DNA of 64,000 nt, taken from Tetracentron sinense (Eukaryota > Streptophyta > Magnoliopsida > Trochodendrales > Trochodendraceae). The stretch is taken from positions 17,742,548-17,806,547 of the forward strand of contig CM026565.1 in the NCBI GenBank assembly GCA_015143295.1, written 5' to 3'. The notes under the pieces were generated by a model, which did not search any database, was not told the origin of the DNA, and saw nothing but the letters and a program-made list of their open reading frames with translations. The translations under genes and the position numbers were made by a program. This document shows positions 4,343 through 58,760 of this stretch, piece after piece (positions within the stretch are counted from its first letter, which is position 1; each line of letters begins with the position of its first letter).

Positions 4343-5989
<1,647 letters not shown>

Positions 5990-30378: not shown

Positions 30379-30399
30379 AATCACTACAAAAATAAAGGC

Positions 30400-30745: not shown

Positions 30746-30749
30746 AGCC

Positions 30750-32850: not shown

Positions 32851-33059
32851 AATCCTCTAAAGTTATAATGTATTAAACTAAGAGCACGTGATTGAACTTG
32901 GGGTGTGATTGAACTCGGGGAAAGTTTAATCGTGATTCAATACGATCTCAACACAAAAAAAAAAAACAAATTCAAAGTTTAGGGGCACCTACCCCCATTC
33001 CTAATCCTAGAGATCGAATCACAGCCAATTGTGATTGGATATGGGGAGAGTTCAAAAGC

Positions 33060-34000
33060 ACCCATCGACCAACATGTGTCCCTTTTAACCCAAATCAATC
33101 GTGGTTTTGATTAACTAACCATTGGGGTTCAATAATATCAACTTAAGGTTAGTATATATTTCCAAAATCAAGTATATATATATTTTTTTTCTAAAAACCA
33201 ATGTTAGATAGGAACTCTAGGGGTGACTGAATCTTAACCATAGTTAGTGGGTATTAAAATGGACACATGACGATTTATAGAGATCTTTTAATTGTGATTA
33301 AGTATAATTAACCAAAGGTTAATATGTTTAATTTTTTCTTAAAAGCAAGGTTAGATGGATTAAACCTAGGGGTAAGTGAATCTTAAACACAATTAAGTGG
33401 GTGTTAAAGGGGACACGTGGTGGCTTGTAGAGCCCCCTTTAATTGTGGTTAAGCATAATCAACCTAAGGTTTTTTTTTCTTCTAAAAATCAAGGTTAAAT
33501 GGATGAATCGTAGGGGTGAGTGAATTTTAACCACATTTAGTGGACGTTAAAGGGGACACGTGGCGGCTTATAGAGCTCCCTTTAATTGTGGTTAATCATA
33601 AACAACCTAAGGTTTTTTTTTCTAAAAACCAAGGTTAATTTGATGGATGAACCCCTAGGGGTGAGTGAGTTTTAACCATAGTTAGCGGGTGTTGAAAGGG
33701 ATACATTGCGGCTTATAGAGATCTTTTAACTGTTGTTAAACATAATTAACCTAGGATTAATATTTTTTATTATATTTTCTTATAACCAAGGTTAGATTAT
33801 TGAATCCTGAGGATAAGTGAATCTTAACCACAGTCAGTGGGTGTTAAACGAGACACATGACGGCTTGTAGAGCCCTCTTTAATTGCGGTTTAGCATAACT
33901 AACCTAAGGTTATTTTTTCCCTAAAACTAATGTTAGATGGATAATCCCTAGGGGTGAGTAAATCTTAATCATAGTTAATGTATGTATTCAAGTAATAGGG
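33060..34000. repeat. ~147-bp tandem array derived from a MITE
   Basis: Six head-to-tail units of about 141-151 bp share CTAAAAACCAAGGTTAGATG, CCTAGGGGTGAGTGAATCTT, AACCACAGTTAGTGGGTGTT and GGACACGTGGCGGCTTATAG. The CTTAACCA word starts near 33233, 33381, 33525, 33670, 33823 and 33962. The unit equals the inner part of the neighbouring foldback MITE, so the array appears to have grown out of a MITE copy whose left end survives at 32999-33075. Confidence 0.88.
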
Positions 34001-34639
34001 ACAAAATGGGAAAAGGGTAATTTTATAAACTAGAAGGGAGGTTTCTGAAATTTCATCAAACCTCAAGGGAAGGGAGTGTATATATGCCCAGTAAGATTTG
34101 TAGTTCAATTGTATGTATCTTGTGCTTACTTAATTGTTAACATCCTTGTTCCCGTTCTGGTACACTTTGTATAGTGCATGCATGATTGAACCTCGTGATC
34201 TATGTTAACTGTTTGAGTGGTTATATGATATTTCCTTTTGATCTTTATGTTATATGTCAATGTTGGAGCAGATAATGTACATATTACCCTATGAAGGACA
34301 TTATCAGTGACTAAATGGAAATTTAAGTTCATATGTTCATACTTTTTTTTTTTTTTAAAAGCCACTCAGGAGGAGTGGGGGGTTTAGCAGACCCCTACCG
34401 GTTTATTAATAAAAAGAGATGGGGGGGGGGGGGACATAAAACCTTACCCCTACAAAGATTCAAAAGCATAGGGGGGACATAAAACCTTACCCTTAAAAAG
34501 ATACAAAAGAAGGAAGAGGGAATTAAAAACCCTCACCCAAAATAAAAAATCAAAATACTCTAATATGACCAAGGTCCACTTTATCCAGAAAGATAAGAGC
34601 CCTAAGATTAGGAGAACTATCCTGTAAGGACTAAAAGAA

Positions 34640-37600: not shown

Positions 37601-38643
37601 ACTCTAGATTTCTGTCTCCAGAATATCTCTTCATAAAGAAGAACAGTCTGCAATTCATCTTTGAGATTAGATAATGAATTATTTTTAGCATCTTTGAATA
37701 TCATCTTCCATTTCAGCAATTTGGCTCTCAAGAGAGTTAATTTTATGAAAAATGTTACCAAAGACTTCTCTATTCCAAGTTTTTAAAGTGTTTTTGAGCC
37801 TTTTAAGTTTAAGAAAAAAAACTATGAGGGGATTGGCTAAAATAGAGGCCCCCAAGAATCAGAAACAAGTCTGGAAAAGTCCGGGTGATTAATCCACATT
37901 TGCTGAAATTTAAAAGGAGAGGGTTTTCTATTAAGATTGTTACCAAATTCTAATAAAATTGGAGCATGATCCGAAGCAATTCTAGATAAATGTTTAACCG
38001 AGGAAAAATTGAAATTATTAGTCCAGACAGGGTTAAACAAAATACGATCTAAACGGGCATAAATACGCTGCATACCAACCTGGTTGTTGCACCAAGTGAA
38101 CCTATTACCTGAAAAGCCCATATCCATCAGACCCAAAGCATTAATCATATTATTAAAATCTTCCATAGAGTCCATGTTAACCTCTTTGCCTCCCAGCTTT
38201 TCAGCAGAATTTGAGATCGCATTGAAGTCACCACCTATGAAAAAAGGACCAGAAAAAGTAGAGAAGGCCACACCTATCTCTTCCCAAAGCGGCAACCGAT
38301 CCCTTCTTGTGCATTTAGCATAAATGAAAGCACATTTAACAGAATTAAATTCTATAGAAGAAATATCAACAATTAGCATTTGTTTCGAAGAAGAAATATA
38401 TTGAACTTGAAGATGTTTTTTCCAAAAGAGCCAAATCTTAGCATGAGAAAGATGGGCAGCTAAATGAGAGTCCATATTAATAAAAGAACAGACTTCTTGG
38501 AGAATATCCTTATTCTTTTTTGGTTCTATAATGGCCGATAAATCAATATGGTTTGTAGAAATCAGTTGTTTAAGATGAGTTTTAGAAGCAAGATTGCCAA
38601 TACCACGAATATTCCAAATAAGAAAATTATTCATTACGAACAA
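34640..38643 (-). pseudogene. LINE ORF2 (endonuclease, reverse transcriptase, RNase H)
   Basis: The AP-endonuclease domain (about 38640-37960) has LIWNIRGIGN, IGGDFNAI and IASDHAPILLEF. The reverse transcriptase (about 37330-36520) has DSAPGLDGFSGLFF, FKPISLCNVLYKIISRILA, QSAFVKGRNILDN, KLDMSKAYDRMEW, LRQGDPLSPAIF and the catalytic FADD. A zinc-binding zf-RVT region is near 35500 and a plant-type RNase H at about 35070-34640 (KLNVDGASRG, AESRALLDGL, VESDSKTLVDA, YREANQVADFLANYGCD). At least six frame changes or stops split it. RNase H after RT is typical of plant L1-clade LINEs. Confidence 0.9.
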
Positions 38644-40411
38644 TGTTTGAGTTGTTAACCAAAGAACGGATCGCTGATCTAGATCGAGTAATTCTACCTG
38701 TTGTAATCATAGGATTAGCATCTGTAATTTTTTCTTTGTATATTTTCTCCCAGTAAGAAGAAAATAAATAAGAATTTAGTAATCTTTGTGAAAAAATTTT
38801 CCCCGCCTCCTTGAAGAGATCAATGTCCTTTTTTAAGCAAGGAATTATATGGGAGTGGTATTCAAAAGTTTGGGAATTTTCCACCAAAGAATTTCCTGAC
38901 CTCAAAGTTTGTTTTATTTTGGAAAAACTTTCTAAAGGTTTGCTCATTTGTTCCCACATGCGATAATGAAAAGGGTGGTTTAAATTTGCATTATCTTGAG
39001 CATGTTTTCTGTTATTATTCATAGCAATTCTCAAATCAGTAATAGAAAAATTAATTTTGTTGTTTATCATTGATCTATTGATTAGAGTTTCTTCCAAGTC
39101 ATGGTTTTCAATGTTCATAGTAAACATTGGAATAGCAACTAGACTAACATCACTGTTAGACTCGGGTTGAGCATCTTTAAAATTCTGAATATCTGCAATA
39201 ATATTTCTAGATTCAGTTTCCATTAAGATATTTTCTTTAGGATGAGGTATTAGGAACTTACCTGATGAAGGGGCCGATGATGAGCCTGCAAAAATCTAAA
39301 CGTTTCCCTTTTCTATGGCTGTAGAAGATTCACCAAGACCAACTAGCTCTATGCCCTTTTCTTTGCCTGTATTGGAATCACCCAGATCAACTATTTGAAT
39401 TTGATAGCCATCAGAATTTACTATGCCTGTAACCATATCCAAAGGAATATGATTTGGATGATCAACTAGAATATTTGGATCTGAAGTATTGTCTGGATTA
39501 TGATCTTTATTTTGCAGCATTAACTGGGAATCCGCAGATCTAGCAACTCCAGAATTATTTCCAGCAAACTGTTTCACCACCCATTGTTTGGTGGTGACCT
39601 TTTGCGCTTCCTCAACATCTTCCTTGTTGCCCATATCCTTTTCCTTGCAATTAGATGATTTCAGCCAAGTTTTCGATCTGGTTTTTTGTCCCAGTCCACA
39701 AGAGGATGCCTCGTGACCAAGCTTCTTGCAAGAAGTGCAATACAGGAATTTTTTTTCATATTCTACCTTTTGCCACTGACCTTGAGTCCCCAAGCCCAAC
39801 CAGAATCTGTCCGGGTGTGATTTTAGGAGATCAATCTCTATACAAATCCTTGCTGCACTCGGTCTTGAGATTGATTTCATGGCTCCATCGATTCTTAGTA
39901 CTTTCCCAAAGATACTTCCAATTGATTGAAGTGCTGAATCATTGAATAAGTGAAGAGGAAAATTGGGAAAACAAACCCATATTGGGACTATGGATGATTC
40001 GGCCCCTGAGATGAAAGAAGTTGTCCATTTGAAGAACCGAAATAAGAAGCCTTTAATGTAAATCACCTCTTTGATTCAGATCATTAAGAAATCATCCTCC
40101 GAAGTGAAACGAAATAGCAAGTGTCTCAAGTCTAAGATCCCCACTTTAAAACCCATATGGAGACCCTCAGATTTCATCATATGAGCCTTGATCACATCCA
40201 GTGATGGTCGGCCATAAGAGCATTTTGCCACTAGGGCTAAAGCATGAGGTTTTGCTAAAACATCGTTTTCTTCTTCCGAGAAGAAGATGGCATGCTCTCC
40301 CTTGTAAGAGGCAGGAGACTTGATAGGAATAGAGGAAGAAGAAGACATGGAGGGAGTTTTTCCTACTATTTCCGCATAGGAGAAGTTGTTGTTGGGCTAT
40401 CGGCCATGGAG
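38627..40411 (-). pseudogene. LINE ORF1 (DUF4283-like domain plus zinc knuckle)
   Basis: The frame begins MADSPTTTS and, after a one-base shift, YAEIVGKTPS, a start common in plant LINE ORF1 proteins. A DUF4283-like region follows (VLAKPHALALVAKCSYGRPS, FLFRFFKWTTSFISGAESSI), then CTSCKKLGHEASSC, a CCHC knuckle. Stop codons near 40073 and 39293 interrupt it. Its last codons (NIVRNE, stop at 38627) overlap the start of ORF2 by about 17 bases. ORF1 protein binds the element's RNA. Confidence 0.82.
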
Positions 40412-40455
40412 ATCTCCCTCCTTGCTGCCGGCCGCCCTAGGGTTTTCCATGAAAC

Positions 40456-41242
40456 CCTAGCAAAAAACACACCAAGAACTGCTAACATGCACCTAAAAGT
40501 TTAGATTGCTAACATGCATTGAAGCTTAGATTTCCTGTTCAACAATCATTGCGTGACAAGTGCATTTCTTGTATCACCTATTTGGATGAATTAGTTGTAA
40601 ACTATGTCATTTAGTTCTCTTGTGGGGCTAAATGCAGGTTAACAACATTTCGGTTTTGTTTGTGATACAATGTATTTGTCTGTATATGATTCTTGAATTG
40701 TCCGGTTGGATAGTTTGGGAATGCATAATCTCTAGTATATTTAGTTACTCATTGTTTGTCCAGATTGAGAAAAATTTTGGCAGTTGTTTCTCTTGTTCTC
40801 TGGGTCCATATTTAGACTATGTGGCATGCTTGCCCCTAGTCTAAGTCGTGTGCTTGGAGAACCATAGGGAAATACTGCTGAAATTTCCTTGAAATGGAAC
40901 AAACCACTTGAGCAAGTGAATATTGGAGATTATGCATTCCTAAATGGGATAGGAACACCCCACCCGTTAGAAGAGAAGTTGAAAACGATAGGAAGCATGC
41001 ATGCATACATAATGTGTAGATGGGGAAGTCATTTGATAGTTGTGCTTTTGCAATTGACTGATGTGATCAATGTTTCCTATTTCTCAGAATAGCTAATAAA
41101 GCAGGACTTAGAAATCTCATCTCATCCCTCAAGGATAAGAGTTGGATTAGAAAGTCAAGGTACTATTTGTCATAAGTTTTGACGAAACCCGGAATGATAA
41201 AATATGACCATCGAAGCATATGATATTTTTTTGGTTACATAG
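40456..41242 (+). other. CACTA intron remainder before the transposase exon
   Basis: Non-coding DNA between the LINE and the transposase. CTAACATGCA occurs twice (about 40481 and 40508). It ends TTGGTTACATAG, a good 3' splice site for the exon starting at 41243. Confidence 0.5.
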
Positions 41243-41626
41243 GGTTTCAAAGGAATACATAGAAGGGGTGAAGAAGTTTATAGAGTTTGCATTAGCTCGT
41301 GGAGCGACTGATAACAATGGCGGTATAAAGTGTCCATGTCCCAAATGCAACAATGTCCTTTATCAAGAGAGAGGTACAATGTACAATCATATGATCTGTT
41401 ATGGATTTGACGTTAACTATAAAATCTGGTTTTATCACAGGGAAGACATATTACAACACACATCGGTTGGCGGAAGAATGTCTCAGAATCCTGATGTGCA
41501 CGACAGCCATAATGAGATGGAAGACCTGGTGCACGATTTGTTTGGGATACCAAATCGAGATGAAACCGGTGCCAGTAGTCGGGATCCCACTCCTGAGGTG
41601 GATAAATTTTTCCAATTGGTAAGGGA
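41243..41626 (+). pseudogene. CACTA TNP2 transposase, N-terminal zinc domain
   Basis: The translation KEYIEGVKKFIEFALARG, then CPCPKCNN and MICYGFD, matches the transposase-associated zinc domain that opens plant TNP2 proteins. The usual MDRSWM start would be in an earlier exon, which I did not find. The open frame runs without a stop to VRD at the F3 insertion point, and its continuation (AGQALYPGCLNHMKLFVIVR) is at 44310. Confidence 0.88.
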
Positions 41627-44304
41627 TGTAGAGCCCCGGAGTTTAGGTTCACTGTTCATGTGAATAGTGCACCTGCCTAGTGTGTGTAAAGGCCTAAAGC
41701 CTTTTAGGTGTTCTTGATTAGTGTGTGTAAAGGCCTAAAGCCTTTTAGGTGTTCTTGATTAGTGAAAAAATGTCTCAAAAGAAGAGTATAATAATCCGCT
41801 CAGTATATAAAATCATAGGGTATAAAATACCCTATGTGTGAATGTAGAACCCTGGGAACCAAGTTGACAATGTTGTGAATAGTGCTGTGAATAGGGTAGT
41901 GACTAGTGCCCTTGGGTATTGGCCTAAGGCTTTCTAGTATGTTTTTGGTTTTATGGTGAGTCGAGTGAGGGTTTTATGTGCGTGTGTTGGATCTCAGAGA
42001 TAGAGAACAAAGACGCTTTAAGTGGGAAAAAACATTGGCATAAAATAGCCTAAGTGCTTAAAAGGGTCTTAGTGAATAGTACGTGAATAGTGCTAGTGCA
42101 AGAAGCATAAAGAGGTCGGGACCTCTCCTTGCATTTTGGTATGTGTTCAGTGATCATCAAGGTGGGTTAAGAACCCATGGGGAATGAGTAATGAGGTGTG
42201 AGTATGGTGTTGGACCAAAGGTAAGAGAGTATAAAATACTCTAAGTGTCAAAGAGGGTGAATGTCTTACCATAACCTCATCTTTGCGGACCTCTAGTTTT
42301 GTCGTCTCTCATCGGAATCGAGTGATTCTTCAACCTTTGGAAATGTATTGAGCCCCTATTTAAGGTTCATGTTTATCACTTTTTGATATTTGGAATAGAA
42401 GTTAATTCAAACGTGGGATTTCTAGAAAGCGGGTCTACTGTCATTTCAGCAATCCCTTGGACCAGTAGCATTTAGGGCCATTTTGGAATATGAATACGGA
42501 AGAATTGGGTTTTGTGCAAACATGAAAGTTGTTCCCCTTTAAATGAAGAATCCAACGCAAGTTGAATCATCAAAATTTGATCACCGAGTAAAAAGTTATG
42601 GTTGAAATACCACAGCGGGAAAAATGAAGGAATGAACAGTAGAAGGATCTATCTAGTTTGGGGAGGATAGATCCTTCAATTCGACACACTGATGGATCTA
42701 TCCATACCCATGACCGATCGATCGACCAAGCCCAATTTTGTATGGGTTTTTTGGCCAGAGAGTGATTTTTTGAAGGATCTATCGGTGCTCTTGACCGATA
42801 GATCCTTGGTGATGGTTTTTGCCTGGAAACGACTCCTGGAGATATTTTGGGGGTGTATGGGTCATTGGCCTCAATCCCTTGGCCCATATAAACCACAATT
42901 TCGTGGCTAGGGTTACAAGAACCCTAGAGAGGAGATTTTTGGGAGAAATTTTGAAAGAGAAGAGAGGAATGTTTGGGTTTTTGCTAGGGCTTGTGCTAGG
43001 AGTAAAGAGGTGAACTAGGATATGCTTCTCAAGCTTGGAGCTCGCCTCCACAAGCGTTCTAAAGCGTGAATCTTGTTCTCCTCAAGCTTTATCAAGCTTG
43101 GGATTGATTCACAAACTTCCTCAAAGCTTTCTCTTGCTACCAAGGAGTATTCTCAAGCTATAAACCGTAGGGATTCGGTTTTGAAAGGTAGATACACTCT
43201 ACCTTGTGCTATTATTTTAAAGGCAAAACTATATGTTAAGCTTGTTCTTGGACTGATTTGGATGATGATTGGTATATGGGATGTAAGCTATCACTATTAT
43301 TGATTTCCATGAATATGATGCCATGTTTACAAGTTTTCTAAGATCACCATGATATTCACAAGTACTATATGCACCTATGTTCACAAGTTTAGCATGATAT
43401 TCATAAGTCTTGCACGATTCGATGATTTCTCACAAGAAAGGTATTTTCAAAATTTCATAAGCAAGGTTTTATTAAAAGAATTCTCACAAGCTCACAAGTG
43501 ATAAGGCCAAACTTTGGGTTGGTATGTGACAAGTTCTAAGATCGTTTCAAAGCTCACAAGGAATCCCACTATACATGGACTCACAAGTAAGTAGTCATGT
43601 CTCACAAGCTCACAAGTTCACAAGCTCGCAAGTTCACAAGAAAATCATGCATACTCAGATCCTCGCATGCTCACAAGGAATCCCAACTCTCGCAAGAATT
43701 CATAAGAACTCACAAGAACATGATTATCACATGACAAGTTTTACCTAGTTTTGATTTCACACAAATACTGTTAAGAAAAAGGATTTTGGTAACTACTTTA
43801 ACGAATGTTATACGCTTATGCATGTTCATGATATTATTCACTATTAGGTAGTAGTTTGTATATCACTAAGTATTCCATGCTCAGCCGAATTATTGACTGT
43901 CGGCAGGTGCACGCGTTCCATTTGATGTCTGTGGTTCGGATCCTTGGATAGAGGAGGAGTACTATGAGCCGAAGCCTTCTATGGATCATTACCAGGACGA
44001 GGGAACAATAGATAGGTGTCCCGACTTTGACTTTGGTTGAGTGAGCTAGGAAGAGAGATATTTGTATATGTTGAGAGTGGGACTTGTCCACTCCATCTTT
44101 TGGATATGTTAGGTTGGTTCAAACTTGAACCTAACGATAGGAGTATTTTATTATAAACTATTTTCGCTTTGTTTCTGCTATGTGTTATAACTTGTGTACT
44201 CTGACAGGTTGATATGTATGCCTTATGTGTCATATGGGATGTATGATACGGCGGTCATGAGCTAAAGTATCCCTAACTCCTAAGGGTTATTTTGGGTCGC
44301 GACA
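41627..44304 (+). mobile_element. Solo LTR F3 in the TNP2 gene
   Basis: It begins TGTAGAGCCCCGG and ends TTTTGGGTCGCGACA, with perfect AGGGA duplications (41622-41626 and 44305-44309). A 41-42 bp direct duplication (GTGTGTAAAGGCCTAAAGCC...) sits near 41679-41762. A second LTR-start-like word (TGTAGAACCCTGG) appears at 41845. A GATCTATC/CGATCGATCG word block lies at 42640-42810 upstream of CATATAAACC (about 42885). CACAAGCTCACAAG repeats occupy 43540-43720, and AGTATTCCATGCTCAGCCGA lies near 43869. There is no coding region. Confidence 0.93.
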
Positions 44305-46151
44305 AGGGATGCGGGACAGGCTTTGTATCCAGGATGCCTGAATCACATGAAGTTGTTTGTCATCGTAAGATTATATCACATTAAGTGTCTTAGTGGATGG
44401 AGCAACAAATCATTCACCTTGTTGCTTGAGTTGTTGAGGGAGATACTCCCCGAGGGATCAACACTACCAGATACGTACTTTTAGAAAAAAAAAGTGATGT
44501 CTGACTTGGGGCTTAACTATGAAAAGTCAATGCTTGCCCCAATGATTGCATGCTTTACTGGAAAGACACTGTGAACAAGCAAACATGTGACATATGTGGT
44601 GAATCAAGATGGAAGACAAGGGATGATTGGTCGGAAGGCAAGAAAAAGAAGACTCCTGCGAAGATTTTACGTCACTTTCTGTTGAAACCCAGGTTACGAA
44701 AATTGTTTATGTCGTCCAAGACTGCTTCTGGAATGAGATGGCATGATGAGGGTCGAACTAAGGATGAGAGGTTAAGGCATCCTGCAGACTCACCGGCCTG
44801 AGAAAATTTGGACAACAACTACCTTTTTTCGCTTCGGATATTGCTCGAATATGAGACTTGGGTTGGCGACTGACGGCTTCAATCCATTTGGAACGATGAG
44901 TATTGCTCACAGCACATGGCCTGTGGTTCTTATCCCATACAACTTACCACCATGGATGTGCATGAAGCAGCCGAACTTCATTCTATCCTTGCTTATTCCT
45001 GGTCCCTCCGGGCCTGGAAATGCCATTGATGTCTACATGATGCCTCTAGTCGAAGAGTTGAAGGACTTGTGGGAGAATGGTGTGCCAACTTATGATGTGT
45101 CAAAAAAGGAGACATTTGTAATGCGTGCAGCATTGCTCTGGACTATTAGCGACTTCCCAGGATATGCTATATTGTCTAATTGGAGTACGAAAGAAACGTT
45201 TGCATGCCCGTCATGCTACAAGGACACTTGCAGTCGGCACTTGTCTAATAGCAGGAAACAATATTACATGGGGCACCATCGTTTCCTAAAGGCGGATCAT
45301 AGGTTTCGGAGGGACAAACACTCTTTTGATGGCACTGTAGAGTTAAGCACTGCTCCAACTACAATGTTTGGGTCTGATGTGTACCGTCAATTGGAGGGGA
45401 TTGCTTTCTGCCTTGGGAAGCAGACAGGACAAAAATGATGAAGGCAGGCTACCCAGGATATCATGCCATATAACTGGAAGAAGCTGAGTATATTCTTTGA
45501 GTTGCCATATTGGAAGCACAATTTGTTGAGGCACAACCTTGATATAATGCATATTGAGAAAAATGTATGCGACAATGTGCTTGAAACTTTGTTGGGTTTG
45601 GATGGAAATACGAAAGATAGCTTAAAAGCTCGACTCGACTTGGTTGATATGCGCATAAGACCAGCATTTGACCCTCAATTGCAGCCTGACACAAACAAAG
45701 TGTATCTGACCCCGGCTTGTTTTTCGATGGACAAGAATGAAAAAGAGTTGTTTTGCAAAGTTCTAAAGAGTGTGAAGGTGCCAGATGGTTACTCGTCTAA
45801 TATTGCAAGACATCTCAATATCGGGCAGCGTAAAATTTATGGACTAAAGAGCCACGACTCTCATGTCATAATGCAACAATTTCTACCATTTGCTGTGAGG
45901 AAGACATTGCCGAAGAATGTCACTTCCGTGCTAATTGAATTGAGCAACTTCTTTCTGGTTTTATGTTCCAAAGTCTGTGATGTCGAGGAATTAAGACGGT
46001 TAGAGGAGAAAATTGCACTTACGCTATGTCATTTAGAGAGAATTTTTCCACCGGCATTCTTTGATGTTATAGTGCACTTGCCTATACATCTGGCAACAGA
46101 GGCAAGGCTAGGTGGACCTGTACAATACCGGTGGATGTATCCCATCGAAAG
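44305..46151 (+). pseudogene. CACTA TNP2 transposase, catalytic core
   Basis: Transposase_21-type core. Readable blocks are KCLSGWSNKSFTLLLELLRE, then CDICGESRWK, AKILRHFLLKPRLRKLFMSS, MRLGLATDGFNPFGTMS, TWPVVLIPYNLPPWMCMKQ, FILSLLIPGPSGPGNAIDVY, LSIFFELPYWKHNLLRHNLD and MHIEKNVCDNVLETLLG. The DUF4218-type region follows (PPAFFDVIVHLPIHLATEAR, then RWMYPIER). Stops include TAG at 44482-44484 and TGA at 45436-45438, with frame changes near 44540 and 44830, so no active transposase is made. It ends at a GT donor (intron 46152-46240). Confidence 0.92.
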
Positions 46152-46240
46152 GTATGACTTCAATTATAATGTATCAATTGCTCAAACTTCTTGTCATTAT
46201 ATGATTCTCTCATTATTTTACCTAAATGTAATTCCTATAG

Positions 46241-47583
46241 GTACTTGTCGACGATGAAATCGTATGTCCGCAACCGAGCTCGACCAGAGGGTTGCATAGC
46301 AGAAGGGTACTTGGCTGAAGAATGCTTGACATTCTGCTCAAGGTACCTAAATAATTTTGAATCGAGATTCAATCGACCGGTGAGGAAGGAAGATGAAAGT
46401 GTAATCGGGGGTGCGCAACCATTTGCCCTAAGTGAATTAGAATGGCAGTAGGCACATCGTTTTGTGTTGTTCAATGATGAGCAACTCACAACATATCGAG
46501 AGTAAGACGAATACTATCATGAATATTTTGTTAATTGTCTTTAATTTAATTTTTATTTTTGATCGGTTTGACTTTGAAAAACATGGATCGATTCGTTATC
46601 TGTAGTCAACACATGAATGTACTGAAGATGACCAATCCCAAACTAAGATCATCTCTGCACGAACTCTAACGAAAGCACAGCGATCAGTTTGTTGAATGGT
46701 TTTGGGATTATGTAAGTCATATGCTCTTAACTTTTATATTTGCACAACGTACACCTATACGAAGTTTTGCATATTGAACCAATCTTATTATGTAAGTCAT
46801 ATGCCTTTGGTCTTCAATTAGGTTGAAATGCTGCGAGTGTCATGCAGTTCGGTGTCTAACGAGATTAAATACCTCGCATACTGTCCATAGTCAGTCACAC
46901 AAAGTTTTAAGGGCTATGTCATTAATGGATATAGGTTTTGTACTACAGATAGAGAGCGCGGGCGCAGAAGTCAAAATAGTGGTGTTACGGTCACTGCAAT
47001 GACTCCTTGTTATGCATCTTCTAGGGACATGATTCCCATTGCAGGAGATATAACCTACTATGGTCAGCTTAACCGACGTTGTGCAATTGACGTATTCAGA
47101 AAACTTGAAATTTGTATTGTTTAAGTGCGACTAGGTTGATGTGACATCACAGAGTAGAGGAATAAAGATCGATGAATATGGGTTTACGCTTGTGAACTTT
47201 ACACGCCTGCTCCCGACACACGTTGTGTCTCATGAACCATATGTAATGGCATCTCAGGCAGAACATGTACTTTACGTAGAAGATCCTTCTGACCGAGATT
47301 GGTATGTTGTCATCAAGACAAAACCAAGAGACTTTTTTGACATGAATGAAGAATCTACTATGGATGATAGCGCATTCAGAGAAAACGAGCCATTCAAGGA
47401 CCAACATTTAGATGTCACTGAACATGACAATGAAAGTGATGTCAGTTGGGTGAGATTAGGGATTACCGGAACAACTGTTGATGCGCACTCTCAAGTGCAA
47501 TGCCACCAAACTCCTTCGACCAAATCTAGTGAGGATGAAGTTGAATCGAACTATAACGATGAAACAGATTGCAATAAATAATA
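46241..47583 (+). pseudogene. CACTA TNP2 transposase, C-terminal exons
   Basis: After an 89-bp intron (GTATGA...CTATAG, 46152-46240) the protein continues YLSTMKSYVRNRARPEGCIA, ECLTFCSRYLNNFESRFNRP. A stop follows ELEWQ where relatives have Q. Later exons give SSLHEL..HSDQFVEWFWDYV (about 46600-46715) and, after 46820, a DUF4216-type region (FKGYVINGYRF, SGVTVTAMT, GDITYYGQL, EPYVMASQAEHVLYVEDPSD, WYVVIKTKPRDFFDM). The frame closes at TAA 47579-47581. It is degenerate but collinear with intact TNP2. Confidence 0.85.
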
Positions 47584-47639
47584 TGCACCTAAATATACAA
47601 ACATAAACAATGTAAGTTTAATCCAATTGCGAAGGTGAA

Positions 47640-48035
47640 TGAGGTTATTTTTATAAAGAACGTTGCTATCGGTTGTTTATTTGCTTGTTAATGGCGAAAT
47701 CCAGATACTTTTATGTGTTTAAACCATTTAAGTATGAAATTTCCTTTACTTGGTTAAGTGTTTATTTGCATATGAATGACGAAATCCAGATACTTGCTCT
47801 ATATGTTTAAACTTTCTAAGTATAAAATTTCCTTTTACTTGGTTATGTGTTTATTTGCATTTCAATGACGAAATCCATATACTTTCATAATTGAGAAAAC
47901 TCTCTAGTATTAAATTTCCTTTACTTGGTTAAGTGTTTATTTGTATGTTAATGACGAAATCTAGATATTTTTATGTGTTTAAATTCTCTAAATATGAAAT
48001 TTTCATTAATAGCTTGTTTATTTGCATGTTCTTTT
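47640..48035 (+). repeat. ~86-bp tandem repeat between the two CACTA genes
   Basis: Four to five diverged units of 84-88 bp share AATGACGAAATCCAGATACT, TATGTGTTTAAAC and AAATTTCCTTTACTTGGTTA. The GACGAAATC word starts near 47694, 47778, 47867 and 47953. The array ends at the acceptor TTTTTCAG before the next gene. Confidence 0.88.
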
Positions 48036-49213
48036 TCAGATGGATCCTGTAGGACTTAGTGGTTCGCCACCACATGCTGAGTCCTTTGCACCTATGCCCG
48101 GGCCTACGAGGAAGACCGAGGCCATACTAGGATGCTGGGTATGTACACTGCCTAGCCGGGGGAGTTGATAGAGGTTGAGATCGATGATATTGTCCAGCCC
48201 GTAGGGCCGGGTGGTAAGACGTTAGGTCAGTTTTTGGGTACCATAGCTCGAGACCCACACCTTTTGCCCTTCGATGTCGGTTGGAGGGACATCGGCATCG
48301 AGGCCAGGGCAAGTGTTTGGCATCTAGTCCAAGTAAGACGCAAAAAATATGCATGTCTTATAGTTTTCAATTTTGAATAGAATGACATTTGTTATATTAA
48401 TAGTTGAAAAAGTAAGCAATTGACAAAGTGATCCAGGAACATTTCCGGGTCCCGCCTAGCCTCGAGAAAAATGTCTTCCACTCACTCGAGCATAAGTGGA
48501 GGGATTGGAGGTCGAGGTTGAAGAAGAAATACATGATCGCGGAGCTTGGACTGGCGGGTGTCTATGCCCCTCAGATATTCTAGAGAGCCAGAAGAGCCAG
48601 TGGCATGGCTTCATGGATTATTGGTTCTCCAATACGGGGATGGTATATCTTCATTAACTTCTTTATTCTAATATGTAATAGACTTCAATAATGTCACTTA
48701 CATTCTCAACGGGAATAAATTTCAATTTTGCAGAAAAGAAGCGCTCAAAATAAAGAGAATCGGAAAAAGCAAAAGGTGATGCACACTTCTGGGTCGAAGA
48801 GCTTTGCTCGCGTCAAAGACGCGATGGTATGTTCGAAGAAATGTTTCCTAAATTTGAAATTTATCATTCATCTTTATGTTATGTTGGCTGATTGATGTTG
48901 TCATTATGGGAGCACAGAAGAAGGCAAGCCCGACCCAGACAGCCTTGGGGCGTGCAGAGGTGTGGATCGTCACTCATTAAGACAAGAGTGGTACACCGGT
49001 GAACGAAGAGGCCGGGGAGTTGATGGTCGGTAATCTTTAGAAGTTCGAATATTCCATTATATAAAATAGTTAATTTTTTAACATATGCGACATCCAACAA
49101 CTATTTCTAATTGTTTGTAGGGACGCATGAGGGAACTCCTGGCGCAGCTACCGGATGGGTCGTAGGACAGCATGGCGCGAGATGATGTATTCTCCCAGGT
49201 CATGCCGCCTGAG

Positions 49214-51637
49214 TGTAACGACCCCAAAATCCCACAAGGCTAAAATAGGACTTTAGGATCGCCACATTACTTAACCTGCTTAAAATCCATGATATGCAAG
49301 GCACACTAACACGAGTCTCCAAAAATGAGGATAATAAAATTTTGGTATATAAACTATAATCAAATAGCAAAAGTCTACGATAAATATATACAACTCACTC
49401 TAAAACCAAAGAGTCTGATACACAACTAAAAAAAATTCTACTAAGTAACATCTACTCAAGTCTAATACAACTCTCTCAATCAAATGAAATAAAAACTAAG
49501 AGGTGTAGCCACCCAAGTCTCTGGCTCCCTCCTCAGAAGGCTCACCTTCACCTCCTTCCTCTGCGTATGTTTCCTCAACCCACGGCTCCGCCGTGTACTC
49601 CTGCTCTAAACCTGCCAAGACAAAGTCCGGCTGAGTACAAAGGTACTCAGTGTATATAAAATCCAACCAACAATAATAATATACCTGCACTTAGTTAGAA
49701 ACATATCCAATAACATAATAACATAATCAGAGTGCAGAAGAACGTGTGCGCATATACATCATATCATCACCTTGACTCCTGTACTTGTGCGAATCTTAGA
49801 CTTGGAAGACAATATACTTATGAGTTGCTTATGCTTATGAGACTACGTGCTTGTGAGATGCTTATGCTTATGCACTTATTCAGATCACACAGTAATGAGA
49901 CATGCCGTTCTTGGCGGATACAGACCATGCCTTAGAAATCATATGGTTGACATGCCGTTCTTGGCGGATACGGACCATGTCTAAGAATCAGGTTGACATG
50001 CCGTTCTTGGCGGATACGGACCATGTCATGCTTATGCTTATTCAGAATGTCATACATATGTCATGCTCATGTTTGTGGTCCACATGTGTGACTTGTGAGA
50101 CTCTTATCTTAACATACGCGTGCTTGTGTACTTAAGTGTCGAAATTAACATTCGAGTCGGTAATTGCTTAGATTCCGATCTCCCACCATGGAAACTCCAC
50201 TATATGTCCCATACCAAATAGTTAGAGAATTCCCGGTTTGAGAGATGTTCCTCTAAGTTCTTACCTTCCCGACTACCAATTTCCATGCAAGTAATTAGAT
50301 ATACTCACCAAACAATCATATATATATATCTTATCATAATTCTTAACACAATTCATGATCTATTTACCACTATTTCATAAGAGTATAATAGCATTTATCC
50401 TTTCAAGCATTTTCACAAACACCTTGTGTACGCATAATATGAATCCATTTCCTTTCTATAATTTCAAGCATTCATCAAACCATAATTCATCCATACAATC
50501 AATTCACTATTCACATCCACATATTAATCCCATCCTCCATACATTTCCCATCCTCCATATATTCTATCCACATTTCCATCAATAATTAGCTTATTTCATA
50601 GAAAATTTGGGGAAAATGTATTTGATCTCTATTCTATCATTTCTATCAAATTAATATTCACAAAACATTAAAATAGAGTTGATTAGGATAGTCTATCGAC
50701 CTTAAGAACTTCCCTTGGATTCAAAACGCTCCCGAGGAGATTTGGAGAAGCTTTGAAGACAATCTCCAAGCTTTCCTTTCAATCTTCTAGCAACCTCCTT
50801 CTTCTCCAAGCAACCCTCTCCCTCAAACCCTAGGTTTTCTCCCCCTTTTTGCCAAATTAGGTTAGAAATAGGTAGAGTATTTTAATATTTCGAGTAGGAC
50901 CCTCTATTTATAGCCCCAAGGTCTGAGAACAAAAGACCAAAAAGCCCTTACTAAATTTTTGCAAAAAAACGAAGGACCCAGGGATCGGTGGTTATGACCG
51001 AGCGATCAGTTCTCAACCGAGCGATCGGTGCTCTTGACCGGTCGATCGGTCAAAAAAGCACTCTCTGGAAATTTTTCCCATACAAAATTCTGGACCAGTC
51101 GATAGATACCGATCGATCGCTACTTCTGACCGAGCGATCGGTTGCCTACAGATTTTTGACCCGCTTTACTGTTTCGGCCATAACTTTTGACTTGTTCGTC
51201 GGATTTCGACGATTCAACTTGCGTTGGATTCCTCTTTCGAAAACGAATATTTCTGACATTTTAGAATTTCTAAATTCCACTTAATTAATAGACTAAATTG
51301 TCTCCAAAGTTGACTGATCTGCAATTCCATTAGATAAAACCCACCATTGACTTGGCTTAAACTCAAAATAAGGAAAAAAATTAAACATGAACTTCGAAGA
51401 GGGTTCCAACACCTTTCTAATGGTTCAAGAATCGCTCCATTCCAGTAAACGGTACCAAAACTAGAGCTTCCTAAAGTTTAGGGTGTGATATGATATCCCT
51501 CCGTTACAAGTTTGATTAAGCCTAGTTTACACCACACCAAATAAATATATAATACAATAAACATCAAAACATCACAAGGGCAATAATACCCCTAATACAA
51601 TGAAGTAAAAACATGAAAAAGATTCAGGGTCTCTACA
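49214..51637 (-). mobile_element. Reverse solo LTR R4 in the second CACTA gene
   Basis: It starts TGTAACGACCCCAAAATCCC and ends AGGGTCTCTACA, flanked by perfect CTGAG duplications (49209-49213 and 51638-51642). GTCCGGCTGAGTACAAAGGT lies near 49628. Three units of GACATGCCGTTCTTGGCGGA lie at about 49898, 49948 and 49994. A minus-strand TATA-like CTATTTATAGCC lies near 50910. A GACCGAGCGATCGGT word block occupies 50975-51150. There is no coding region. Confidence 0.94.
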
Positions 51638-51837
51638 CTGAGCGTCTTGGGAGAATACGTGATTAGGCCTGACCGCCACCCAGTTAGGCTGGTCACGATC
51701 GTCGAGCCATGCCGGTTTGGCATCAGGAGCTGCTGAGACCCAGATGCTGAGGGATCAACTCACGTCTACTCAGGTGCTTGTGGCGACCCAGCAGACTCAG
51801 ATCGCTCAGATCCAGGCGACCCTTGACTGGGTACTAC

Positions 51838-51892
51838 AGGGGATGGGGCTGGGGCTGGGGCTGGGGCTGGGGCTGGGGCTGGGGCTAGGGTA
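51838..51892 (+). repeat. (GGGGCT)n hexamer repeat coding Gly-Leu
   Basis: About nine GGGGCT units sit in frame at the end of the second CACTA gene, giving a (GL)n tail after the coiled-coil-like segment. Confidence 0.92.
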
Positions 51893-52129
51893 GGGGCAGG
51901 TATATAATCTAATCGACATTAACTAAACATGTTTAATAATATGAACTTGAATCATTTATTGACTCAAATACATCACGAACAACATGCAGATGAGCCTTCG
52001 ACAGCACCACACGCATCAGAGTAGGTAAATGTTAATTTTAAATGTTTTATTTTCTATTTTTAACTGCATTAGAGCATTTCTAGCAGGCTCACCAACTTTT
52101 ACTCACCAAAATAGCCAAAACTCAGAAAA

Positions 52130-52510
52130 AATTAATGGTGGTGCTACTGGTGGTGGTGGTAGTGGTGGTGGATGGATGGTAGTGGTGGTGGATGGGTGGT
52201 AGTGGTGGTTGGTAGTAGTGGTAGTGGTGGTGGATGGGTGGTAGTGGTGGTGGGTGATTATAGTAGTGGTGGTTCTAGTGGTGGTGGTAGGTAGTAGTGG
52301 TAGTGGTGGTGGATGGGTGGTGGTAGTGGTGGTGGTAGTGGTGGTGGGTGATTGTAGTAGTGGTGGTAGTGATAGTGGTTGTAGGTAGTAGTGGTAGTGG
52401 TGGTGGATGGGTGGTGGTAGTGGTGGTGGATGGGTGGTAGTGGTGGTGGATGGGTGGTGGTAGTGGTGGTGGTGGTAGTGGGTGGTGGTAGTGGTTGTGG
52501 GTAGTGGTTT
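52130..52510. repeat. GGT/GTA-rich low-complexity block
   Basis: Irregular GGTGGTGGATGGGTGGTAGT units cover about 380 bp. Long open frames on the minus strand (Thr/Pro/His-rich) are composition artefacts. A shorter GGTGGT stretch recurs at 54570-54640, on the far side of the SUVR fragments. Confidence 0.9.
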
Positions 52511-52617
52511 TGTTAATATTGTGTAATATGTCAAATGTAACCTTGAATGTAATTGGCCAAAAAAAAAATCTGCCATTCCTTAGTATAGAGAGCATTCCTA
52601 GCTAGTAGTCTCACCAA

Positions 52618-53370
52618 AATTTAAACCTATTTAGTTAAGTATGTTAGTAATGGACATACCTCATTTTCATAAGTTCGAACACTTTATTCTGCAAATCTGA
52701 ATCTTAGACCTATTTAGTTAGTATGTAAGTAATGGAAATACCTCATTTTCATAAGTTGGAACACTTTACCTTGCAAAATCTAACTCTTAGACCTATTTAG
52801 TTAGTATGTTAGTAATGGAAATACCTCATTTTCATAAGTTCGAATACTTTACTCTGCAAAATCTGAATCTTAGACCTATTTAGTTAGTATGTTAGTAATG
52901 GAAATACCTCATTTTTGTAAGTTGGAACACTTTACCTTGCAAAATCTGACTCTTAGACCTATTTAGTTAGTATGTTAGTAATGGAAATACCTCATTTTCA
53001 TAAGTTGGAACACTCTACCTTGCAAAATCTGAATCTTAGACCTATTTAGTTTGTATGTTAGTAATGGAAATACCTCATTTTCATAAGTTGGAACACTTTA
53101 CCTTGCAAAATCTGAATCTTAGACCTATTTAGTTAGTATGTTAGTAATGGAAATACCTCATTTTCATAAGTTGAAACACTCTACCTTGCAAAATCTGAAT
53201 CTTATACCTATTTAGTTAGTATGTTAGTGAAGGATGAACCTTACTTTTGTGAGTCGGACTCTATACCTTGCAAAATCTGCAATATATATGATTGCTTAGC
53301 ATGTGTTAGTGATAGAGATAGCTCACTTTCGTGAGTTGGAACACTATACTCTACAAATCCAAGATTTAGT
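52618..53370. repeat. 83-bp tandem array
   Basis: About nine units, each near 83 bp, share ACCTATTTAGTTAGTATGTT, AGTAATGGAAATACCTCATT, TTCATAAGTTGGAACACTTT and GCAAAATCTGAATCTTAG. The last two units (from about 53206) are more diverged. Confidence 0.93.
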
Positions 53371-53517
53371 TAGATTAATTTGAGACTTCCTAAGGTTAAA
53401 ACTTAAGGGTTAGCTTCCAGATAGGGAATTCGGCTTTTCGGTGCCCAAATCGGACATCAAAAGGTGCAGATGTAACTCCAACACTAGCTAACACTAAATT
53501 CAGAACAAGGACAAACT

Positions 53518-53990
53518 TTGACTTGTAGATTGCATGTTATGCCTCGATGTACCACCCAGTTCCTGCACTGTTTATTACAACCACATTTATGGAAGAAGAT
53601 ATTTGATAAATTTTCTTACTAAATGACCCTTACAGGGGTCAGGAATGTCCTCATTCTTGGACAACTCATGCAAACACTCTTTACAATAAAAAGTCTGGTG
53701 ATGTTGAGATTCGCGATTCATAGATATACATTCTTTTAGAACCTCTTCCTTGACCAGACCTTCACGTGCACATGCACATGGAATGGATGATGATGACATA
53801 CAATGACCAAAACAATGTGAACTACAATATTCACCTTTGGTTATGTCATTAGCATCGTGGAGGGTTCCGTGTTACTGAACAATCACCAAACTAAGTGAAT
53901 TTGAATAACCTGAACTTTTCATTTCATTCTCTTCTTATCCCTATCTCCATTACCGTTCCCGACAACTTCCTTGTTGGGATGAAGGTCATC
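53518..53990 (-). pseudogene. Captured SUVR-type histone methyltransferase fragment, copy A
   Basis: The minus-strand translation gives HDANDITKGE, CSSHCFGHCMSSSSIPCACA, EGLVKEEVLKECISMNRE, FYCKEC, DPCKGHLVRKFIK and, after a frame change, KCGCNKQC and VVHRGITCNLQV. These are the pre-SET and zinc-cluster motifs of plant SUVR1/2/4 proteins (family pattern CARE..EG.LKE.FL, CKGHL.RKFIKECW.KCGC..QCGNRVVQRGI). Segments normally between NDITKGE and the cysteine cluster, and after CARE, are missing, and there is no SET domain. It is not a working gene. It lies inside the CACTA element, so it looks captured. Copy B lies head to head with it. Confidence 0.85.
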
Positions 53991-54129
53991 TAAACCATTC
54001 AAACATAGAAGAAATGACATCTCGGTGCCCAAATCGGGCTGACTTCCAAGAACCTAGTCTAAATCCAGGTATAAAATTAGTGGAAGACATAGTCGCTCAA
54101 ATCGGAAAGAAGTATGAATTCCAGATAGT

Positions 54130-54565
54130 TCTTCGAATGGATAGCCAAATGAAGTTGTTGTAAATGGTACTAGTGAAAGGGATAAGTCGAGAAATGAATC
54201 CAAATTTTCAGCCTATTCAAATTCAGGTATTTTGGTGGTCTTCAGTACGTAGCACGGATTCTTCCACGATGTTAATGACATAATTCAAAGGTGAATAATA
54301 TTGTATAAGTATTGTTCTGGTCACCGTATGTTATCAACATCGATTACGTGTACATGCTGACACGAAGGCCTGGTCCAGGGAAATGTTCTGAAAGAATGTA
54401 TATTTAGGAATCACGAGCCTCAACATCATCGGAACTTTTATTGTAAAGAGTTCCCGTATGAGCGGCCCAAGAATGAGGACATTCCTGACCCTTGCAAGGG
54501 TCATTTAGTAAGAAAATTTATGAAGTATATTCTTCCATAAATGCGGTTGCAACAAGCAGTGCAGG
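54130..54565 (+). pseudogene. Captured SUVR-type fragment, copy B (inverted relative to A)
   Basis: The plus strand gives, over several frames, HDVNDI, EGLVQGNVLKECIFRNHE, FYCKEF, NEDIPDPCKGHLVRKFMK and HKCGCNKQC. It pairs as an inverted repeat with copy A over about 430 bases; by eye roughly three quarters of positions agree, with long exact runs such as AAGAATGAGGACATTCCTGA and GGGTCATTTAGTAAGAAAAT. The two copies are separated by about 140 bp. Homology ends at CAGTGCAGG (54565), earlier than in copy A. Confidence 0.83.
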
Positions 54566-54639
54566 ATTTGCTAGGAGGTGGTGCATTAGTGGTGGTTGGG
54601 TGGTTCTACTGGTGGTGGATAAGTGGTGGTACTGGTAGT

Positions 54640-57600
54640 GCTAGTACTGAAACCAATTATGGATTTCGGCCGAAGTATAGTATCCAATTATGGATTTCGG
54701 CCGTCTCGGCGCCCATATCGGGTATACGGCCTCAGATTCGCTTGAAACCAACTCGAATACTTAGGATGTACTGAAATACACACGTTAGAAGAAATGAGAT
54801 CGAAATCAAAACCCCGGTTTGGAATTGGTGGGACGATGTAGGTTTAGGCCGAAGTACAATATCCAATTATGGATTCTGGCCGTCTCGGCGCCCATATCGG
54901 GCATACGGCCTCGGATTTGCTCAAAACCAATTCAAACACTTAGGATGTATTGAAATACACGCGTTAGAAGAAACGAGATTGAAATCCGACCCCTGGTTTT
55001 GAATTGGTGGGACGATGTAGGTTTAGGCCGAAGTATAGTATCCAATTATGGATTTTGGCCATCTCGGCGCCCATATCGGGCATACAGCCTTGGATTCGCA
55101 TGAAACCAACTTGAACACTTAGGATGTATTGAAATACACGTGTTAGAAGAAATGAGATTGAAATCCGACCCCTGGTTTTGAATTGGTGGAACGATGTAGG
55201 TTTAGGCCGAAGTATAGTATCCAATTATGGATTACGGCCGTCTCGGCGCTCATATCGGCAGTACGGCCTCGGATTCCCTCGAAACCAACTCAAACACTTA
55301 GGATGTACTGAAATACACGCGATAGAAGAAATGGGATCGAAATCCGAGCCCCGGTTTGGAATTGGTGGGACGATGTAGGTTTAAGCCGAAGTATAGTATC
55401 CAATTATGGATTTCGGCCGTCTCGGCGCCCATATCGGGCATACGGCCTCGGATTCACTCGAAACCAACTCGACCACTTAGGATGTATTGAAATACAGGCG
55501 TTAGAAGAAACGGGATTGAAATCCGACACTTGGTTTTGAATTGGTGGGACGATGTAGGTTTAGGCCGAAGTATAGTATCCAATTATGGATTTTGGCCGTC
55601 TCAGCGCCCATATAAGGCATACAGCCTCGGATTCACTCGAAACCAACTCGAACACTTAGGATGTATTGAAATACACGCGTTAGAAGAAACGGGATTGAAA
55701 TCCGACCCCTGGTTTTGAATTGGTGGGACGATGTAGGTTTAGGCCGAACTATAGTATACTATTATGGATTTCGGTCGTCTCGGGGCATATATCGGGCATA
55801 CAGCCTCGGATTGGCTCGAAACCAACTCGACCACTTAGGATGTACTGAAATATATGCGTTAGAAGAAATGGGATCGAAATCCGATCCCCGGTTTGGAATT
55901 TGTGGGACGATGTAGGTTGAGGCCGAAGTATAGTACTTAATTATTGATTTCGGCCGTCTCGACGCCCATATCGGGGATACGGCCATGGATTCGCTCGAAA
56001 CCAACTCGAACACTTAGGATGTATTGAAATACACGCATTAGAAGAAATAGGATCGAAATCCGACCCCCGGTTTGGAATTGTTGGGACAATGTAGGTTTAG
56101 GCCGAAGTATAGTATCCAATTATGGATTTCGGCCGTCTCGGCGCCCATATCGGACATAAGACTTCGGATTCGCTCGAAACCAACTCGAACACTTAGGATG
56201 TATTGAAATACACGGGTTAGAAGAAACGGGATTGGAATCCGACCCCTGGTTTTGAATTGGTAGGACGATGTAGGTTTAGGCGGAAGTATAGTATCCAATT
56301 ATGGATTTCGGCCGTCTCGGTGCCCATATCGGGCATACGGCATCGGATTCGCTCGAAACTAACTCGAACACTTAGGATATATTGAAATACACGCATTAGA
56401 AGAAACGGGATTGAAATCCGACCCCTGGTTTTGAATTGGTGGGACGATGTAGGTTTAGGCCGAAGTATAGTATCTATTTATGGATTACGGCCGTCTCGGC
56501 GCCCATATCGGTGTACGGCCTCGGATTCGCTCGAAACCAACTCGAACACTTAGGATGTACTGAAATACATGGGTTAGAAGAAATGAGATCGAAATCCGAC
56601 CCCCGGTTTGGAATTGGTGGGACGATGTAGGTTTAGGCCGAACTATAGTATCCAATTATGGATTTCGGTTGTCTCGGCGCATATATTGGGCATACGGCCT
56701 CGGATTCGCTCGAAACCCACTCGAACACTTAGGATGTACTGAAATACACATGTTAGAAGAAATGAGATGGAAATCCGACCCCCGGTTTGGAATTGGTGGG
56801 ACGATGTAGGTTTAGGCTGAAGTATAGTATCCAATTATGGATTTCGGCCGTCTCGGCGCCCATATCGGGTATACGGCCTCGGATTCGCTCGAAACCAACT
56901 CAAAACCTTAGGATGTATTGAAATACACGCGTTAGAAGAAATGAGATCGAAATCCGAGCCCCGGTTTGGAATTGTTGGGACAATGCAGGTTTAGGCCGAA
57001 GTATAGTATCCAATTATGGATTTCGGCCGTCTCGGCGCCCATATCGGACATACGGCCTCGGATTCGCTCGAAACAACTCGAACACTTAGGATGTATTGAA
57101 ATACACGCGTTAGAAGAAACGGGATTGGAATCCGACCCCTGGTTTTGAATTGGTGGGACGATGTAGGTTTAGGCGGAAGTATAGTATCCAATTATGGATT
57201 TCGGCCGTCTCGGTGCCCATATCGGGCATACGGCATCGGATTCGTTCGAAACTAACTCGAACACTTAGGATATATTGAAATACATGCATTAGAAGAAACG
57301 GGATTGAAATCCGACCCCTGGTTTTGAATTGGTGGGTCGATGTAGGTTTAGGCTGAAGTATAGTATCCAATTATGGATTTCGACCGTCTCGGCACCCATA
57401 TCGGGCATACGGCCTCGGATTCACTCGAAACCAACTCGACCACTTAGGATGTAGTGAAATACACGCGTTAAATGAAACGGGATCGAAATCCCACCCCCGG
57501 TTTGGAAGTGGTGGGACGATGGAGGTTTAGGCTAAAGTATAGTATCCAATTATGGATTTCAGCCGTCTCGGCGCCCATATCGGTCATACGGCCTCGGTTT

Positions 57601-58085
57601 CGCTCGAAACCAACTCGAACACTTAGGATGTATTGAAATACGTGCATTAGAAGAAACAGAATCAAAATCCGACCTCCGGTTTGGAATTGGTGGGACGATG
57701 TAGGTTTAGGCCGAAGTATAGCATCCAATTATGGATTTCGGCCGTCTCGGCACCCATATCGGGCATACGGCCTCGGATTCGCTCGAAACCAACTCGAGCA
57801 CGTAGGATGTATTGAAATACACGTGTTTGAAGAAACGGGATCGAAATCTAACCCCCGGTTTGAAAATGTTGGGACGATGTAAGTTTAGGCCGAAGTATAG
57901 CTTCCAATTATGGATTTTGGCCGTCTCGGCTCCCATATTGGGCATACGGCATCAGATTCGCTCGAAACCAACTCCAACACTTAGGATGTACTAAAATACA
58001 TGCGCTAGAAGAAACATGATCGAAATCCGACCCCCGATTTGAAAATGATGGGACAATGTAGGTTTAGGCCAGAGTAATACTGCGA
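54640..58085. repeat. ~178-bp satellite-like array, 19 units
   Basis: Nineteen head-to-tail units of about 178-179 bp share CACTTAGGATGTATTGAAAT, AATCCGACCCC, GACGATGTAGGTTTAGGCCG, AGTATAGTATCCAATTATGG and TTTCGGCCGTCTCGGCGCCC. Many open frames of 60-90 codons on both strands come from stop-poor units and are not genes. A higher-order repeat is visible: units at 56034-56405 share private variants (AGGCGGAAG, CTCGGTGCCC, GAAACTAACTC, GGATATATTG, TTGTTGGGACAATG) with those at 56928-57299, 893 bp or five units away. Confidence 0.96.
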
Positions 58086-58434
58086 ACTATTAATATTTTG
58101 AGATGAGTTTGGATCTTTGCATATTTATTAATTATTACATTCTCAAATTTTCTCATTTAGAAAAAAAGATTAATACTTTCATGGGCATGTATATATAATT
58201 TTGATATTTCAGGTGTTTGGGGCATTTTTTTAATTAGATGAATTTTTTATTCTTAGTTGGAATTAGATTTTGTTACAGGTACAATACATGTTTATTTAGA
58301 TTTATATTGCTCACAGGTACAGATAATACTGGAAATTTTTTTTTTTGCAAAAATAATTTCTTTTTTTTTAAATATTTTAATATGGCGGCAGTTTGGAACC
58401 ACCGTGATATTAATAATATTTTAATTTATTAAAA
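58086..58434. other. AT-rich stretch between satellite array and right end
   Basis: T-rich DNA with several poly(T) runs. I see no gene or repeat unit in it. Confidence 0.5.
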
Positions 58435-58740
58435 TAATATTACGGCAGTTCTGCTCGCCGTAAGGTGTTACGGCGGTTGAAACTGCCGTAGATTTTTGAT
58501 ATATATCGGTGGGAACTGACGCCGTGATAGAATCAATACAGTACGGCGGAATAAAACTACGGCAGTTACCAACCGCAGTAAGTTCTTCATATAAGACGGC
58601 GGTCGTTATTAACCGCTGTTCATATCCGCCGCGATAGGAATCCCCGACAACATATTCTTCGACGGGTCAACTTACAGTCGTGATATATTATGACGGTGGT
58701 AATTTTAGATAGTACGGCGGTTTAGAATTGCTATAAAAAA
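58435..58740. repeat. Right subterminal repeats of the CACTA element
   Basis: Direct and inverted copies of TACGGCGGTT, AACTGCCGTAG, ACGGCAGTT, GACGGCGGTCG and AACCGCTG mirror the left-end block. Confidence 0.85.
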
Positions 58741-58760
58741 GCTCAAGTTTTGTAGTGAAT

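Follow-up and report, generated by a model that had tools for sequence, protein, structure and literature searches.

A SUVR2-like inverted repeat inside a CACTA transposon of Tetracentron sinense is probably an ageing, captured gene fragment

The CACTA element and its surroundings

The stretch of DNA analysed here (the window) comprises 64,000 nucleotides of Tetracentron sinense (GCA_015143295.1, contig CM026565.1, positions 17,742,548 to 17,806,547 of the forward strand) and contains a long DNA transposon that carries two SUVR2-like gene fragments in opposite orientation (Table 1). The terminal motif CACTACAAAA is present in just two copies in the window, one at 30382 on the plus strand and the other at 58748-58757 on the minus strand, compared with 0.32 expected occurrences, and at least two were seen in 3/100 shuffles. 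Terminal inverted repeats (TIRs) and target-site duplication (TSD) taken alone do not exceed chance: among 37 pairs matching at 11 or more of 14 positions, one had equal 3-bp flanks and about 0.6 (37/64) would be expected. On the other hand, 20 WCGGCRG motifs were found in the window against an expectation of 7.05, a number that none of 100 shuffles reached, and 13 of the 20 are located at the two ends of the element. The central region matches Transposase_21 with an E-value of 2.7e-85. An earlier note on this DNA had described a TSD-bounded CACTA element of 28 kb, and this description stands on all parts together, with TIRs, AAT flanks, subterminal repeats and tnp2 transposase in combination identifying the sequence as a CACTA element. 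In the transposase, two in-frame stops (45436-45441) and a shift of frame within DUF4218 break the reading frame, and as read this copy would be unable to make a whole transposase. Any benefit to the element would therefore require helper copies.

Table 1. Coordinates of the CACTA element, of the SUVR2-like pair and of associated repeats in the window
Feature	Position	Strand	Description
CACTA DNA transposon	30382..58757	+	28,376 bp; TIRs CACTACAAAAATAAAG / CACTACAAAACTTGAG; AAT at both flanks
5' TIR and subterminal repeat zone	30382..30952	+	6 WCGGCRG motifs
Nested L1-type LINE	34763..40075	-	DUF4283, Exo_endo_phos, RVT_1, zf-RVT; interrupted frames
Transposase gene region	41208..47581	+	Transpos_assoc, Transposase_21 (tnp2), DUF4218, DUF4216
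179-bp satellite-unit remnant outside arm 1	53411..53457	+	nhmmer E 5.5e-4
Arm 1, SUVR2 fragment	53518..54015	-	sense on minus strand; LNGLDDLH (end set by eye) to ITCNLQ
Best-kept 94-bp stem, arm 1 half	53565..53658	-	KNEDIPDPCKGHLVRKFIK, shared 13-nt block, KCGCNKQC
Short 179-bp satellite-unit remnant between arms	54018..54046	+	weak: nhmmer E 0.062
Arm 2, SUVR2 fragment	54130..54566	+	sense on plus strand; up to KCGCNKQCR; inner end set by eye
Best-kept 94-bp stem, arm 2 half	54469..54562	+	
Satellite array beside element 3' end	54664..58076	+	19 copies of 179-bp unit
3' subterminal repeats and 3' TIR	58442..58757	+	7 WCGGCRG motifs

The SUVR2-like pair lies inside the element, as the earlier note had it, and is positioned 3' of the transposase between an array of 83-bp units (52621-53357) and the array of 179-bp units (54664-58076). 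The 19-base motif CTCGGTGCCCAAATCGGGC of the 179-bp unit is present as an exact copy at 54021, between the arms. Similar TGG-rich repeats flank the pair at 52136-52508 and 54577-54640 (self-blast) and are perhaps the border of an old duplication. Ten further frames of the element, from the 74 listed with at least 75 codons, contained no captured-gene domain: eight were without a match, one held an extra piece of DUF4218 and one gave a weak match to DUF7296 below the cut-off. One PHROGs scan returned nothing. Elsewhere in the window, further self-complementary stretches (fold-back elements) were observed at 62097-62491, 32516-32846, 2566-2965 and 61314-61360, and an ADAGIO/ZEITLUPE gene (LOV, F-box, kelch) is located at 4343-5989 on the plus strand; its frame matches HHK36_021123 of Tetracentron sinense at 100% identity over 98% (next best match, 88%).

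Structure and origin of the inverted pair

Both strands of 53518-54565 were read, and the region was compared with itself. Self-blastn of the window returned one strong pair, comprising 53561-53972 on the minus strand and 54148-54566 on the plus strand, in which 330/420 columns (79%) are identical with 9 gap positions (E 5e-93), so that the inverted pair described earlier is real. A looser local alignment joins 53547-54067 to 54081-54586 over 480 ungapped columns with 82.3% identity and 67 gap positions. The arms are arranged head-to-head and their sense strands diverge. Palindromic artefacts of long reads do occur, and an assembly palindrome, or else similarity by chance, could be invoked for the pair. 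However, a read artefact is expected to yield near-identical arms, whereas these are 21% different and contain indels. Because of the score and the divergence between the arms, both forms of artefact are excluded, and we regard either as next to inconceivable.

A search of a large protein set with the joined reading of arm 1 gave 172/187 candidates at E<=1e-3. The top match was SUVR2 of Magnolia sinica (E 3.7e-34, 66% identity over 89% of the query), followed, among the best 120 of the 172 relatives, by proteins of Nelumbo, Persea and Macleaya; many of these 120 are named SUVR2, SUVR1 or SUVR4, and the rest are unnamed, hypothetical or SET-domain proteins. The protein search that had been proposed as a check of the SUVR homology thus recovered it, and, since the best of the 172 matches is a SUVR2, the arms are pieces of a gene of the SUVR2 clade. 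The similarity covers the pre-SET region of SUVR2 and SU(VAR)3-9-related proteins. Intact pre-SET, SET and WIYLD domains are not encoded, the arms representing a fragment with frameshifts, stops and internal deletions, and the joined fragments matched neither Pre-SET in Pfam at E<=1 nor any entry in the PDB. No SUVR entry labelled Tetracentron was present in the best 120 of the 172 relatives or in 11/11 entries of another list, many entries being unnamed; the donor would presumably be the host's own SUVR2 gene.

The motifs listed in the earlier note hold in part. KCGCNKQC is found in both arms, in each of them out of frame with the preceding part, but RGITCNLQV is restricted to arm 1, with arm 2 stopping soon after KCGCNKQC. 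Likewise, the spelling GLVKEEVLKECISMNRE is that of arm 1, while arm 2 has GLVQGNVLKECIFRNHE instead.

Reading both arms and their alignment against the SUVR family revealed that they have their lesions in common. Roughly 45 codons following KGE and roughly 10 at ETGGEFAYTL are absent from both, and in each a 13-nt block, TATNTTCTTCCAT, replaces the ECWS codons and shifts the frame. The outer and inner ends are nearly equal between the arms as well. The shared lesions and ends point to one captured and damaged fragment that was subsequently duplicated once, head-to-head. Alternatively, the arms might derive from two independent captures in opposite orientation, with either SUVR2 itself or a pair of SUVR2 paralogues left by the genome duplications of Trochodendrales as the source. 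This would fit the third-position divergence of the best-kept stem (8/26 codons, K about 0.40), which comes close to the 0.38 calculated for a duplication 59 million years ago at the published rate. Separate captures are, however, not expected to share two large deletions, a 13-nt frameshift block and near-identical ends; these rule out an independent capture of the arms, which we judge very improbable, and we retain a single capture followed by duplication.

The SUVR likeness of arm 1 ends between CTACAA and GT, where SUVR2 genes have an exon end. In 12/20 relatives that were hand-picked and inspected, likeness is lost right after LQ or LQV, which we read as retained introns marking the intron at which the likeness of arm 1 stops. 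Because it stops at an exon-intron border, we infer that the fragment was derived from unspliced DNA. In one Salvia protein, precisely the residues from NEVN to GLV are missing, and this single protein suggests that the two large deletions may each have taken out an intron plus its borders.

Divergence, predicted fold and possible function

Between the arms, the K2P distance over 407 ungapped core columns is 0.20. The synonymous rate given for Trochodendrales in PMC7709256, 3.25e-9 changes per site per year, converts this into an age of about 31 million years, near the Tetracentron/Trochodendron split, for which the same source gives 30.7 million years. Since methylated transposon DNA probably mutates faster than the published rate, we lowered the estimate to a range of 10-30 million years. 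The pair may be older than the present CACTA insertion.

Differences between the arms are spread evenly over codon positions 1, 2 and 3, both in three codon-assigned blocks (14/89, 15/87 and 13/87; p 0.915) and over 392 columns (20/132, 24/130 and 26/130), ruling out codon constraint on the arms as a whole. A search for wobble bias towards one strand was negative, as 19 differences are G-U-compatible in the plus transcript and 22 in the minus transcript (p 0.76). Clustering of identical columns was not significant by four measures (p 0.39, 0.22, 0.32 and 0.15) or by two more (p 0.32 and 0.20), and identical 21-column windows are in slight excess (11/404, p 0.068). Residues conserved in the family have been lost in both arms. 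Because the codon-position, wobble and clustering tests show no bias, the whole pair looks neutral, and the overall differences between the arms fit neutral decay.

The earlier note had predicted that a transcript across the pair would form a hairpin, and folding bears this out. For a plus transcript of 53565-54560 the predicted energy is -496.8 kcal/mol (mean of 20 shuffles -233.4, z -43.6), and for the minus transcript of the same positions it is -490.2 kcal/mol (shuffle mean -235.9, z -28.7). A fold-back of this predicted strength follows from the inverted repeat as such and is no proof of function. A single 72-nt piece from one arm folds with a z of -1.9, which is uninformative. In Rfam the pair had no miRNA match, SNORD99 alone being returned far below threshold (22.7 of 60 bits).

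One part of the pair departs from this pattern. In the stem from KNED to KQC (53565-53658 / 54469-54562), to which all 11 identical 21-column windows are assigned, 8/8 codon-assigned differences between the arms are at the third position, and one further difference falls inside the 13-nt block, where no codon is assigned. The best segment contains 0/38 differences at positions 1-2 and 8/19 at position 3, for which a scan gave p 0.002 (1000 shuffles), an optimistic value given that the pattern was noticed by eye before testing and rests on 8 differences. At positions where 80% or more of relatives share a residue, departures amount to 1/36 in the stem, compared with 12/40 in the GLV..RS part and 3/12 in the unpaired tail of arm 1. 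Uniform neutral decay predicts neither the third-position-only change nor the 1/36 departures. A single protein cannot account for the pattern either, because the frameshift block splits the stretch. The choice is thus between chance, which we favour, and a stem held matched to a codon-constrained target mRNA. If the 94-bp stem, once derived from SUVR2, had been kept matched to SUVR2 mRNA, codon constraint on the target would confine change to third positions while the remainder decayed; we consider this quite unlikely.

The anomaly, though post hoc, keeps alive the idea of an active counter-defence, in which small RNAs from the outer 94 bp of the hairpin would match SUVR2 mRNA, lower its level and ease silencing of the element, with selection keeping the stem matched as the rest decays. 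The idea draws on the account of Arabidopsis SUVR2 in PMC4260354, according to which the protein acts in transcriptional silencing at targets of RNA-directed DNA methylation (RdDM), histone methyltransferase activity not having been observed in the work described there. It also draws on pre-miR820 and OsDRM2 as a precedent (PMC3459959), on the strong fold-back predicted for both strands, and on the third-position pattern and few departures of the stem. Against it stand the post hoc nature of a signal resting on 8 differences, the overall neutrality, the lack of the strand bias expected of a selected hairpin (19 vs 22 differences) and the broken transposase, by which any benefit would depend on helper copies. 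The action against the host SUVR gene that the earlier note proposed is accordingly not supported: the arms, at 79% identity, have both decayed, few of their 21-column windows are identical, differences over the whole core look neutral and Rfam offers no miRNA match. We rate an active counter-defence as unlikely.

Reading of the pair and its significance

Passive capture with a later inverted duplication is probably the better account, with mostly neutral drift and little or no effect on SUVR2 today; capture alone had been named in the earlier note as the alternative, and it is this alternative, with the duplication added, that the evidence favours. On this account, a CACTA element of Tetracentron sinense would have taken up a piece of SUVR2 genomic DNA, presumably from its host. 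The captured piece would then have lost intron-spanning parts and gained the frameshift block, and the damaged piece would have been duplicated once, head-to-head, beside the 3' satellite array of the element. Some 10-30 million years of drift, most of it neutral, would have followed. A transcript of the pair, if made, would form a long imperfect hairpin open to cutting by Dicer enzymes, as the inverted-duplication model has it for young MIRNA genes of plants, and the expected fate of the pair would be decay.

Young MIRNA genes are reportedly born by inverted duplication of protein-coding genes (as Allen et al. 2004 are said to have proposed). PMC1790633 describes inverted duplications as founders of young MIRNA genes, which in many cases drift and are lost. 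Like the loci described there, the Tetracentron pair has two arms that resemble one protein-coding gene over more than 21 nt and that have drifted; unlike them, it sits in a transposon, and no miRNA/miRNA* window stands out clearly as conserved. Some young Arabidopsis MIRNA loci have, according to the same source, drifted to the point of no longer interacting with their parental transcripts, and the pair might similarly be a decaying MIRNA-like locus without regulation of SUVR2, whose drifted small RNAs act on the element itself or on nothing. The imperfect stem agrees with this, the lack of an Rfam match above threshold does not, and we hold it to be distinctly doubtful.

The precedent of miR820 that the earlier note invoked is genuine. 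As reported in PMC3459959, five CACTA copies of rice carry a fold-back that resembles parts of OsDRM2, exon as well as intron, and for miR820, small RNAs of 22/24 nt were detected and cleavage of OsDRM2 was shown. As with pre-miR820, the Tetracentron fold-back lies inside a CACTA element and shows similarity to a silencing gene of the host, in exon as well as intron-border sequence. Compared with pre-miR820 as described in that source, it has a longer stem and more strongly decayed arms, and its candidate target is a different gene, SUVR2. The likeliest reading of the pair is an ageing fold-back built like pre-miR820 of rice.

Inverted duplications whose transcripts yield silencing small RNAs are known from Mu killer and from the hairpins of teosinte pollen drive. 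The Tetracentron pair is likewise an inverted duplication; the target of Mu killer is the transposon itself, whereas the arms found here would hold host sequence. Capture of gene fragments by CACTA elements is described for Tgm-Express1 of soybean (PMC1947982) and for Chenopodium elements, which also carry 3' satellite arrays (PMC8978399). The Tetracentron element resembles both in containing apparent exon and intron pieces of the host, and the latter in the satellite array near its 3' end. In contrast to the captures described in these two sources, it carries one fragment twice and inverted, and in contrast to the Chenopodium captures, reported from the 5' region, its fragment occupies the 3' region, amid satellite remnants. 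Captured fragments can, according to PMC13317346, feed siRNAs against their donors or act as camouflage. A limited literature search brought up no CACTA element with a SUVR fragment, and a literature search for Tetracentron small RNA gave nothing relevant.

The pair is thus ordinary in kind, with a well resolved history, and it is a good candidate for testing. Should the stem indeed be held matched to SUVR2 mRNA, it would be the second independent CACTA case, after miR820 and DRM2, of small RNAs directed against the RdDM pathway; the pathway would be hit at another point, and the host is a tree whose lineage diverged early among eudicots. If active, it would mean that CACTA transposons have repeatedly made hairpins from the silencing machinery of their hosts, and the arms-race reading of miR820 would become a general rule testable across plants. 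If inactive, which is more likely, the pair would provide a dated example of how a captured fragment becomes a fold-back and decays, from capture through shared lesions and inverted duplication to neutral drift.
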